This document shows, piece by piece, positions 1 through 59,482 of a stretch of 59,482 nt of DNA (positions are counted from its first letter, which is position 1; every line of letters begins with the position of its first letter). A model generated the notes under the pieces. It was not told where the DNA came from. It saw only the letters and a list, made by a program, of their open reading frames with translations, and made no database searches. The translations under genes and the position numbers were made by a program. The stretch is taken from assembly GCF_001315985.1 (NCBI RefSeq), contig NZ_BBBI01000012.1:1-59482 (forward strand). Reading direction: 5' to 3'. The DNA comes from Vulcanisaeta distributa JCM 11216. Its GTDB lineage: Archaea; Thermoproteota; Thermoprotei; Thermoproteales; Thermocladiaceae.

Positions 1-210
1 CCGCTGGTGCTGGGCTTTCTAACTATGCGTGGGATTTTCATCTTTACGCATTCATTGGCTTAGGAATAATTTGTGATTGTTTATGCAGAAGATTGTATAT
101 TGTTTTCTACTCCCTAGGTTTGGGTTTTTGTTCTGTGGGTTGTGGTTTTTGGCGTGTTGCCTTTGCTTGAGCCGGTGTCTTGGCTTGTTAGGCATTATCA
201 ACGTCATCTT

Positions 211-551
211 TTAATTTCGCCGTATTCCCTCCATGGCTTTCTTGGCGGTTGGTTTGTCTTGTCGCTGAGCTCGGTGGCTGGGGGGGACCAACCCATGGCC
301 ATCCCTCATGAATCCCTAAGCAACTCGATCATGTACCTCATGGTTTTGCTTAATGTTACCTCTTGTTCATCAACCTCATCACCGCATGCGTACCTAACCT
401 TGACGGTTTTTGGACTTTCACTCACTATTACGTAAGTGAGTTTGTACCTTGGTTTGAGTAGGTCATTGCTCATTGGCTTTACCTGCTTTATTACCTTGAC
501 TTCTTTATCGAGTACTTCGAGGTAATAGTCTCCTTCGCAATCCATGTTCAT
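211..551 (-). CDS. hypothetical protein (frameshifted)
   Basis: I do not recognise this protein. The frame from the ATG at 551 begins MNMDCEGDYYLEVLDKEV and runs to a stop near 306. A one-base shift close to 300 continues into a lysine- and arginine-rich tail (TAKKAMEGIRRN) ending at 211. The composition is soluble and charged with no membrane segment. A second ATG lies at 545. The opposite frame is hydrophobic and reads like a shadow. Nothing in the neighbourhood points to a role, except that a repeat-family (PaREP2b) gene lies divergently next to it. Confidence 0.35.
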
Positions 552-698
552 GCCCCCCCTCCACGTGGACCAAGGCTCCATTCAATTGCCTGCTTAAGCT
601 AGTTCAGCACTGGTTTGGCAGTGATTTATTAGTTTGGTTGTTAATTTAGGCTTATGGATGTTTCATGGCTCTTAACGGCTTAAGAATATGCTGGGGGT

Positions 699-2173
699 GT
701 GAAGGCCAAGGGCTCGAGGAGGCTTGAATGTGGCGATCCAGTCAATGAACCAAGGGTCGTAGAGGAAGCGATGAGGCTAATCAATGAGTTCATGAATAGA
801 GTCGAGAAGCACAGAAACGCGCTACTAAACGAATCAACAACGCCATTTGATGAGACAATCAAGGCGTTGACTGAATGGCTGCAAAAGATTGAGGAGAAAA
901 TTAAGGAAAGTAATGATGAAAACATAACCAACTTGAGGAAATCAATGCTTAAAGTCGGCAGAAAGATGCTGATGCTCGCAGAACAAGCCAGGGAAAAATG
1001 GCTTAAAGTCTATAAGCGAGAGCTAGAGGAGTTGATTGAGGAGCTGGGGGGGAGAGGTAAAGTGGCAATCATGATACGCGGTGACCCATTTAATAAGGAT
1101 AAGAGCTTCACAGCACACCTATACACGAAGAACTTGACAATTGAGGTAAGTAGGGTTGCTAGGTCAGGTGGTGTGACAATAACAATGAACTTAACTGGCC
1201 TCAGGGGGGGCTTTCACATCGTTACGCCCAAGCTGTTCAGTGATGGCAAGTTGAGGGCAATGCAACGTGGATTGTTGTTGACTGATGGTTCAATTGATAA
1301 TAAGGGTTACCCGGAGATGGGTACTAACCAGCTTTGGCAATCCGTGGCTTGGTTAATTGCTTGGCCTGGAAGAAACAGCATGAACATAAGTAGTGTGGGC
1401 ATTAATGACCAAGTAAGCATTACGTGGTATTTAAAGGCTATCAGCCATAAGGGTGTAATTAGGAGTAAGGCTATGGCTGCCGAGGAGGTTAGTGAATTAG
1501 GTAATGAGGAGTTCCCGCTATTCCTACTATTCGCAATCTTAGGCGATGGTAGTGTGGATATTGGGAAGAAAAGGAGGATCACTCTTACAATGGGTGGGGG
1601 GGTGAAGCATGATTTGTGGGGGGGCAGCATAATCGAGAGGTTGAGGAGCCTCGGGTTCAGGAAGAAGGATGAGAGGTATGAAGTAACGTACGTGGTTTGG
1701 GCTTCGAAGGCTGTTGAGATAGCCAGGAAAATGCTTGATAATCACTCAATCAAGGCTTTGATTGAGGACTTGAGCACCTTGTTAGATGCGGATAAGCTTA
1801 GGCGATTAATTACGCTAGCGAACATGAGGGTTAAGCCAAAGGGTAGATCGTCGATTGAGGTCGCCGGCATCAAGATGACTGTATATGCGAATCGAGATGG
1901 TTACGTGGAGTTGAGGATTAGCCGCAGTAATTATAACGACGCCGTGGAGATTTTAATGAAGTTGAAGAGCGCAGGTTATGAGGAGATTGAGCTAAGGAGG
2001 TGGGTAGTAGGTATGCAGTCTACATGGGCATGGATGCAATAAGGAAATATCCCGAACTCGTCAGCGAGGTATGTGAAGTATTAAAGAGGATGCATGAGGA
2101 AGCAGTAAATGAGGACAACACAGAGAGGGCTTGGTCAATAGCCAAGGCGATGGCGAATCTAGGCTGTCAATAA
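699..2173 (+). CDS. PaREP2b-family protein
   Basis: This resembles the PaREP2b family, known from Pyrobaculum aerophilum and other Thermoproteales as multi-copy proteins of unknown function. What can be seen is an N-terminal helical, probably coiled-coil part (about residues 20-120), then the family-like segments RAMQRGLLLTDGSID and MGTNQLWQSVAWL, and a second LGDGSVD segment. The paired xxDG(S/F) motifs recall LAGLIDADG folds, but catalysis is not shown. The first frame stops at 2042. Adding one G near 2011 (GG to GGG) reads on through YAVYMGMDAIRKYPELV to 2173. The start is GTG at 699. Several runs of seven G lie inside the gene and probably each add one residue. Family assignment is from memory of the motifs. 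Confidence 0.6.
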
Positions 2174-2273
2174 CCCCCCCGCCCAGGGCCCACGGGCACA
2201 ATAAATCATCATTCCCCCCCACCTAAACTGGGTAATTCTCCGTATCATGATTGCACTGTTAACATTTAAAGGT

Positions 2274-2415
2274 TTACGTGTAGTCCCCCCCAGTCAATAA
2301 TTCATCAATATTAACATTAACCTCAGGCCCTAGCGGGACGTCTTTACCCTCTGAATAAAGTTTGAGTGCAGTTACTGGGCCGCTATTAACCTCGTTATCA
2401 CGATATAACCTCCAT
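2274..2415 (-). CDS. possible small protein, partial or broken
   Basis: The reverse strand holds a short open stretch reading RDNEVNSGPVTALKLYSEG, then KDVPLGPEVNVNIDELLT, ending at a TAA at 2274. It has normal coding composition, but its 5' part is interrupted near 2415, so no start can be fixed. It lies between the PaREP2b gene and the next plus-strand gene. I do not recognise a family; size and place would suit a small antitoxin-like protein, but nothing proves that. Confidence 0.25.
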
Positions 2416-2431
2416 AAGGGCTAGGGACACA

Positions 2432-57580: not shown

Positions 57581-57663
57581 CAATACGTGGGTTCACGTCA
57601 TGGTTATTTTACTTAATATAGAAAATAATGTTTTTAAATTATTAAGAATTAAATTGAATATTA

Positions 57664-58562
57664 ATGAATAAGGGTGACATCCTCGGTCTCATTAGGGCGT
57701 GGAGTCTATTAATGACTTTAGCGGTTTCCCTAGTCGGCATTGGTTATGCCTATTACCTTGGGCTTTACTACGGCTTAAGGATTATATATTCAGTAATGGC
57801 TGTGGCGGGCGCCTTACTCCTTCATGCCAGTGTTAACGTGCTTAATGACTACTACGACTTTATACACGGTGTTGACAGCCCCCCCAACTCACCCACGGCG
57901 GTTTATAGACGCCAACCACTGGTCATGGGTACGGTAAGCCCATCATTCGTTAAGAACCTGGGGGGGTTCTCACTAATAATTGCGGGGGGGGCTACGATTG
58001 GCATATATCTAACGGTAATGGAGGGCTACCTAATACTGGCGCTTGGGTTACTTGGCGTGTTCCTGCTATACGCCTACACGGGACCACCATTCACGCTTAA
58101 GTATAGGGGGGGCTTGGCGAGTTATCGGTTGCATTAACCTGGGGGGGCCCATTGCTGGTTAGCGGCTTCTTTACGGCTGCATCTGGTGGTTCATTAATAC
58201 CAAGCGTGCTCTTAATATCATTACCGCCATTCTTCATAATGTTCTCGATAATATACACAAACAACTACAGGGATAGGGAGTACGACGCCAAGGCCGGAAT
58301 TAGGACTTTAGCCATGTTAACGGCTAAGTACGGCTACCAAATATACATAGGCTCATTGATTACGGCCTACATAATCAACACGGCATTGGTAATCACGGGC
58401 ATACTGCCATACACCGCGCTGGCCACGTTACCCACGGCAGCCCTAGTACCAAGACTAGCAAGGGCCTTCAGGGATAACGCGCATGACATAGACGCAAGGA
58501 CAGGCCTCCTATACACAATATACTGCCTAATATACGGCGCAGCCCTAATGATACCAACGTGA
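57664..58562 (+). CDS. UbiA-family prenyltransferase
   Basis: Integral membrane prenyltransferase. First Asp-rich motif NVLNDYYDFIHGVD, second NNYRDREYDAKAGIRTLAM. Helices follow in the usual nine-helix order (LLMTLAVSLVGIGYAYYLGL, GYLILALGLLGVFLLYAYT). One G is missing near 58119, which restores LGELSVALTWG, and the G7 run there (WGGPLLVSG) and others add glycines. About 300 residues. ATG at 57664 with TTTTTAAATT about 28 bases upstream. MenA-type or archaeal-lipid (DGGGP synthase) use cannot be told apart here. Confidence 0.85.
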
Positions 58563-58615
58563 GCAGCGAACCAACAATAAAAACTTAATATATGCCCTTA
58601 AATAATTAATAACCT

Positions 58616-58692
58616 GGGCCCGTAGCTCAGCCAGGTAGAGCGGCGGCCTCCGGAGCCGTAGGTCGTGGGTTCAAATCCCACCGGGCCCGCCA
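58616..58692 (+). tRNA. tRNA-Arg(CCG), intronless, CCA encoded
   Basis: Acceptor arm GGGCCCG (58616-58622) pairs with CGGGCCC (58682-58688). The D arm is GCTC...GAGC, the anticodon stem GCGGC/GCCGT with loop CTCCGGA giving anticodon CCG, and the T arm GTGGG-TTCAAAT-CCCAC. The discriminator is G58689 and CCA is encoded at 58690-58692. No intron. The next gene is an integrase, so this tRNA is a likely attachment site. Confidence 0.95.
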
Positions 58693-58794
58693 AATAGCGT
58701 TCAATTCCTCGCTTGTTTCTATTCTGCCATTTATATCGCCGTTGGTGCTCCTTTATATTAAGTTTTAATATCCCTTTCAGTACTGGGTTGTATT

Positions 58795-59482
58795 GTGGTT
58801 GATTGTGATTTGTTGGATTTAGACTTGATTGGTGGTGAGGATAGGTTGAGGATTATCCAGTATGTTACTCAGGTGAAGGGGTGTGAAGCCTAAGGATCTG
58901 GGTTTCACGCCTGAGTACATGTACATGGTTAGGCATGGTAAGATTAAGGTCAGTGATGCATTGCTCTGCGCAGCCCTTAGGTACGTAACCCCCTGAGGAA
59001 CTTACGCAGTTGCTTAGGGGGGGTTGGGTCCCCGAGAGGAGGGCTACATTGGCTGACGTGATTAGGGTCTTCGTAACTGCTAAGGCTTATCCAATGTTTA
59101 GGGAGCAGGTCTTGGCTTTATGTTCCCGTTACCTGGGTGAATACGTTCAGAGCCTTGGCAGGACTTGGCATGTCACGAATGAGGATATCGAGACTTATGT
59201 CAAGGCTATGAGGCTTAGGGGGGGTGTTAGGGATAGGACATTGCGTGACAGGCTTCACTACATTCAGAGGGCCTTGAGTGATTTGGATTGGGTTCTTAGC
59301 CCGGAGGCATTAGGGATTACTTGGCTGAGGTGCTTAGTGAGGATGGGCCTAACGTGGCTAGGCACATATCGGCTAGCCTCAAGTCCTTCATTAAGAATGT
59401 ACTCCAGCCTAAAGACCCAGGCCTATTCGCAATACTCTACAACTCCTTCAAGACCATTAAGTCAAGGAGCAACAATAAGGCT
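58795..59482 (+). CDS. probable tyrosine-recombinase integrase next to a tRNA (partial)
   Basis: N-terminal part of what looks like an archaeal integrase; the catalytic domain lies beyond the window. The joined frame reads RLRIIQYVTQVKG, KPKDLGFTPEYMYMVRHGKI, SDALLCAALRYVTPEELTQL, then a core-binding-like segment YLGEYVQSLGRTWHVTNEDI and HYIQRALSDLDWVLSPEAL. The HTH followed by SAM-like helices and the site beside a tRNA fit SSV/pNOB-type crenarchaeal integrases. Errors: G4 for G3 near 58878, C5 for C4 at 58989-58993, one A lost near 59312. GTG at 58795 with TTTTAATA about 29 bases upstream. Catalytic residues cannot be checked. Confidence 0.65.

Follow-up and report, generated by a model that had tools for sequence, protein, structure and literature searches.

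Phase-variable homopolymer tracts are few, lie in particular genes and change in length by small steps. The homopolymers considered here are runs of G or of C (G/C runs) in a 59,482-nucleotide stretch of DNA, the window, which is positions 1 to 59,482 of contig C12 (NZ_BBBI01000012.1) of the draft genome of Vulcanisaeta distributa JCM 11216 (G000; 2.42 Mb, 65 contigs, completeness 67.75%). Like phase-variable tracts, they are G/C homopolymers of seven or eight bases; unlike them, they number in the thousands, occur everywhere in the genome and mostly reflect a change of three bases. A second point of comparison is the Ion Torrent Personal Genome Machine (PGM), for which the available part of PMC3623719 reports that high-frequency indel errors with 200 bp kits were strand-asymmetric at 7.4% (897/12,107) of testable sites and mostly did not replicate across runs. 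According to the available parts of PMC3623719 and PMC4719071, this platform tends to under-call long homopolymers and to err in A or T flows. As far as that part of PMC3623719 describes them, PGM high-frequency errors resemble the changes in G000 in being indels rather than substitutions and in their partial strand asymmetry, whereas the PGM profile differs from G000, where G/C runs of at least four alone are over-called, mostly by exactly three bases. The evidence set out below indicates that the long G/C runs are almost certainly a sequencing artefact, an over-call that appears to depend on read orientation, and not biology; the extra Gly and Pro residues in the predicted proteins are not real and are not a biological feature.

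G/C runs of length four, five, six, seven and eight in the window number 64, 22, 9, 128 and 22, respectively, and none is longer. Under a first-order Markov model trained on the window itself, approximately 367 runs of length four, 110 of length five and about 13 of lengths seven and eight combined would be expected. Runs of four to six are depleted and runs of one to three look normal, as do A/T runs (152 of length four, 63 of length five, 3 of length six and none longer). The earlier note had described more than 100 G/C runs of exactly seven or eight and comparatively few of four, and the count agrees, with a total of 150 runs of seven or eight across positions 1 to 59,482 (no strand assigned), the alignable part of which was compared run by run with relatives, and 64 fours against the approximately 367 expected. 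Eight stretches on other contigs of G000 exhibit the same run-length pattern as the window. Among the eleven other Vulcanisaeta genomes, ten possess only zero or one G/C run of at least seven per sampled stretch (3-20 kb); the eleventh, the draft G008, resembles the window in its run lengths, as does G020, a draft from another genus of the same family. No G/C run longer than eight was seen in 502 kb of G000, 237 kb of G008 (contigs C1, C2, C3, C6 and C7) or 160 kb of G020 (contigs C1, C2, C3, C5 and C22).

A survey of the pattern HGGGGGGGH was performed on both strands of 405 genomes (81 plus 324 by handle number) covering the class to which the window belongs and a sample of the phylum. The pattern is matched 4803 times in G000, 3857 times in G008 and 7958 times in G020, and between 0 and 340 times in each of the other 402 genomes. 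The two genus mates of G020 in the sample have 43 and 119 matches, and the entire draft of Vulcanisaeta sp. JCM 16159 (G002) contains three seven-base G/C runs. The distribution of the affected genomes, three genomes in two genera, does not follow phylogeny.

Run lengths were compared with those of relatives from the same genus: G002 and Vulcanisaeta sp. JCM 14467 (G004), which are both JCM drafts, and the single-contig genomes G007 (2,374,137 bases) and G003 (2,298,983 bases), which we take to be V. distributa DSM 14429 and V. moutnovskia 768-28, respectively. G002 is the closest relative of G000 found, with an identity of 96% across one 10 kb stretch, 92.5% over the 51 kb mapped in the window and 95.2% over the 95 kb mapped in contig C1. 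The two-relative comparison covers the window and the part of C1 that aligns to the fetched stretches, and its counts, like all such counts here, are of cleanly alignable runs (for the window against G002, 54 of the 128 runs of seven are omitted). Where G002 and G007 agree on a G/C run of four, G000 reads four, five, six, seven and eight in 49, 9, 4, 116 and 2 of 180 cases, such that 131 of 180 are lengthened; the seven runs of five on which they agree are read as six once, as seven twice and as eight four times. G/C runs are capped at four in this comparison, and in the 16S alignments described below, so that counts of threes remaining three there prove nothing; runs of three were tested in an independent, uncapped alignment in which runs were not collapsed, covering the window, the C1 part and the 16S locus. 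In this alignment, 1281 of 1292 G/C runs of three are unchanged, nine are read as two, one as one and one, at the 16S locus, as four. G/C runs of four are read as three, four, five, six, seven and eight in 3, 43, 7, 3, 85 and 3 of 144 cases, and A/T runs are unchanged in 79 of 79 cases at length four and 24 of 27 at length five. Lengthening relative to relatives is limited to G/C runs of at least four.

When 15,115 runs of the window were compared by three-way vote, 41 length changes proved private to the window, of which 27 are additions of three at G/C runs of at least four, three are other changes at such runs and 11 lie elsewhere; G002 has 24 private changes and G007, which is more distant, has 80. 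The length changes of the window relative to its relatives cluster at particular homopolymers. G002 is without lengthening, yet in 12 of its 24 private changes a short G/C run has lost a single base, and these losses may be connected with its 63% completeness. The proposal in the earlier note that most long runs are fours lengthened to seven, or fives to eight, was right about the commonest case; the outcomes span four to eight, with none above eight in the stretches read. A doubling rule (2n-1) was rejected, since most fives end at seven or eight and a seven ends at eight.

The alternative raised in the earlier note was a real, genome-wide expansion of G4/C4 to G7/C7, which could proceed via slippage or a mutator with the reading frame kept by selection. 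In its favour, most changes are additions of three and preserve the frame, and the pattern is common to three genomes. The nearest relative, however, is without lengthening, and additions of three are at least as frequent outside coding DNA: with coding defined as open frames of at least 90 codons in G007 rather than by annotation, true fours are read as seven in 145 of 238 coding cases and in 9 of 11 non-coding cases, the latter being a small sample. Functional RNA genes are not spared either. The 16S locus of G000 (contig C19), which comprises an upstream flank and a 16S gene truncated where the contig stops, is lengthened at 30 of 41 aligned G/C runs of at least four relative to G007, and the 16S locus of G020 is lengthened at 32 of 48 such runs relative to G014, with one run shortened. 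Runs are equal in 116 of 117 cases between G002 and G007 and in 110 of 114 cases between G004 and G007, which served as 16S controls. Both G000 and G020 give the 16S run of seven as eight, one six likewise becomes eight in G020 and one six in G000 keeps its length; there seems to be a ceiling of eight for lengthened runs. Because additions of three occur outside coding DNA and in the 16S gene, selection for the frame is no explanation and was rejected. No match to a 16S gene was obtained in G008, and a 23S gene was not found in G000. As a separate observation, an RNA family search detected only four pieces of the G000 16S gene, in which many runs are lengthened.

Inheritance of the lengthened state was assessed at 178 true-four sites present in both G000 and G008. 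Both genomes are lengthened at 70 of these, G000 only at 53, G008 only at 38 and neither at 17, giving an odds ratio of 0.59 (p 0.14). There is no positive sharing between the two genomes and therefore no sign that the lengthened state is inherited, and the lengthening is not shared with close relatives. Neighbouring G and C runs, moreover, behave oppositely over the length of a read, as described below. On the combined evidence of the relatives, the 16S gene, the lack of sharing and the strand pattern, a real genome-wide expansion is rejected as extremely improbable.

If the over-call depends on the strand that was read, neighbouring runs of the same base should agree in outcome and neighbouring runs of opposite bases should disagree, across a read length; this expectation was formed beforehand. 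For same-base pairs less than 40 bp apart, r is 0.42, 0.54 and 0.46 in G000, G008 and G020, respectively, and for those 40-100 bp apart it is 0.36, 0.25 and 0.22. For opposite-base pairs, the corresponding values are -0.36, -0.26 (from 19 pairs) and -0.31 at less than 40 bp and -0.29, -0.51 and -0.32 at 40-100 bp. Same-base agreement and opposite-base disagreement are present in all three genomes. The pooled signed autocorrelation at less than 100 bp is 0.326, against a mean of 0.000, a standard deviation of 0.026 and a maximum of 0.090 in 1000 shuffles. It falls from 0.45 at 0-25 bp to 0.25 at 75-100 bp, 0.13 at 150-175 bp and 0.024 at 175-200 bp and is approximately zero thereafter, and this near-linear decay to zero at approximately 200 bp is consistent with reads of about 200 bases. 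The plain correlation between neighbours on C1 is close to zero (0.02), as the two kinds of pair offset each other. In all three genomes, the lean of sites read as five resembles that of fours, and the lean of sites read as six resembles that of sevens in G000 and, allowing for error, in G008. This strand fingerprint is new here.

Two other sources of the difference between fours and sevens were considered and rejected. Sequence context is not the cause in G000, where flanking bases and G+C content hardly differ between the two outcomes; among the smaller samples, A is more frequent at the third base ahead of an unchanged four in G008 (0.30 vs 0.15), and the unchanged fours of G020 are more often G (0.66 vs 0.52). 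Regional variation was rejected likewise, as sevens make up 0.50-0.75 of fours and sevens together in each 20 kb bin of C1.

One of the two bases, G or C, would be over-called in runs of at least four, typically by three and to a total of no more than eight, in reads of one orientation, and the complementary base, read in the other orientation, would be called correctly. The two orientations would then disagree at each run, and the consensus of the assembler would take the orientation that is locally dominant. Fours would be left as seven or eight in about two thirds of cases, unchanged in about one quarter and as five or six in a few, in patches as long as a read (approximately 200 bases) within which neighbouring G and C runs would have opposite outcomes. 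Three added bases preserve the frame, and the GGG or CCC codon so gained accounts for the surplus Gly or Pro. The consensus alone cannot reveal which base is over-called or in which orientation. A rival explanation places the fault in assembly, polishing or file processing, for example repeated consensus polishing, with no cause at the level of the reads. The usual addition of three and the ceiling of eight do look rule-like, and the outcome in G000 is nearly independent of flanking sequence; however, a process blind to orientation would not give opposite states to G and C runs lying within about 200 bp of one another, and a strand-weighted consensus could do so, but the cause would then still lie in the reads. 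A processing fault of this kind is therefore highly improbable. It is vanishingly improbable that, in a few hot-spring archaea, G4/C4 tracts have really grown by three bases in patches some 200 bases long that each affect one strand. The suggestion of a systematic sequencing, base-calling or assembly fault in the earlier note is thus supported: the nearest relative and the genus apart from G008 are without lengthening, a draft of another genus has it, the 16S gene is lengthened, G000 and G008 exhibit no positive sharing and the runs carry a read-strand fingerprint.

The platform can be guessed to be Ion Torrent PGM, and G000, G008 and G020 may, as a further guess, belong to the JCM draft series of a Japanese programme. 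Four Psychrobacter JCM drafts of the Japanese programme were produced with Ion Torrent PGM and Newbler 2.8 according to the available part of PMC3974947, and several JCM Vulcanisaeta drafts are listed in that of PMC5069417. From the data at hand, we infer a fault in base-calling rather than in chemistry and consider that the three affected drafts may derive from one sequencing programme; miscalibration of the G or the C channel, confined to one run or one software version, would be compatible with the pattern. There may be a link to a threshold of four in Torrent homopolymer recalibration; no paper with those words was found. No description of this run-lengthening fault was found in the literature, as judged on titles or the starts of abstracts.

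Several points weigh against the orientation-dependent over-call in this form. G002 and G004, JCM drafts of the genus of G000 and so drafts of the suspected collection, are without lengthening. The changes are not those of ordinary PGM homopolymer error, in that only G/C runs changed and these were over-called; since the published PGM profile differs, an ordinary PGM run would not yield this pattern and a special fault would be needed. Some true fives are unchanged, with 6 of 35 remaining five in the comparison with G002 alone (5 of 21 on C1) and one becoming four. The opposite-base correlation at short range in G008 comes from few pairs, and at greater distances there is signal for which a simple model has no explanation: G008 is noisy past 200 bp (0.13 at 250-300 bp and -0.13 at 300-400 bp), and G000 keeps a correlation of -0.07 at 600-1000 bp (2709 pairs). 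Sites read as six in G020 lean like fours, neither between nor like sevens. No mechanism examined yields the usual addition of three, the abrupt onset at four or the upper limit of eight.

G000, G008 and G020 are each the sole genome of their species in the collection searched. G/C runs that are exactly seven long number approximately 3,900 to 8,000 in each, and nearly all of these are presumably false; proteins predicted from these drafts will contain spurious Gly and Pro residues, and their frames will shift wherever a run is wrong by one or two bases. Both genomes in which the 16S gene was found, G000 and G020, have a damaged copy. The listed completeness of G000, G008 and G020 is 68, 67 and 47%, respectively; that of G002, which is without the fault, is 63%, and because fault-free relatives can also be low, the fault may be only part of the cause. 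The value of the result lies in a database warning, as the record is to be used with care, and in an example of a read-strand imprint visible in an assembly alone. As the neighbour-run fingerprint can be computed from an assembly alone, databases could be searched with it for consensus errors that depend on the strand, with no need for raw reads.

All ten run coordinates singled out in the earlier note are the start of a G/C run of seven or eight, and at all ten the aligned sequences of G002, G007 and G003 are three bases shorter; at some of these sites, the relatives additionally differ by a substitution inside the run. G008, itself affected, could be aligned at six sites, and in three of these its run is seven bases long. 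The motifs SEGGEAIA, RRGGV, LEPP and IAPPG are present as described, in frames that are open for at least 15 residues on each side. Pfam supports the frames of the topoisomerase (Toprim and Topoisom_bac), TsaD/Kae1 (TsaD) and acyl-CoA dehydrogenase (Acyl-CoA_dh); Cren7, superoxide dismutase and SDR (short-chain dehydrogenase/reductase) are the names given in the earlier note.

In the topoisomerase IA-like gene, the G8 of SEGGEAIA (21147..21154, plus strand) has three fewer bases in G002, G007, G003 and G008, which also have a non-G base in the run. The TsaD/Kae1 gene contains four such runs on the plus strand: a G7 at 53904..53910, which is four G in G002 and G007 and seven in G008; a G7 at 54056..54062, which is four G in G002, G007 and G003; a G8 at 54190..54197, with three bases fewer in G002, G007, G003 and G008; and a G7 at 54330..54336, with three fewer in G002, G007 and G003 and seven in G008. 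The acyl-CoA dehydrogenase gene, also on the plus strand, contains G7 runs at 15002..15008 and 15058..15064, which are both four G in G002 and G007, and at 15046..15052, which is four G in G002 and G003. In the putative Cren7 frame, the C7 at 30696..30702 (minus strand; RRGGV at 30692-30706) is four C in G002 and G007 and seven in G008. In the putative superoxide dismutase frame, the C7 at 3899..3905 (plus strand; LEPP at 3893-3904) is four C in G002, with three bases fewer in G007 and G003. The IAPPG motif of the putative SDR frame was located at 23664..23678 on the minus strand. Outside these genes, the window contains an open urocanase frame at 9553-11340 that possesses all three Pfam urocanase domains.

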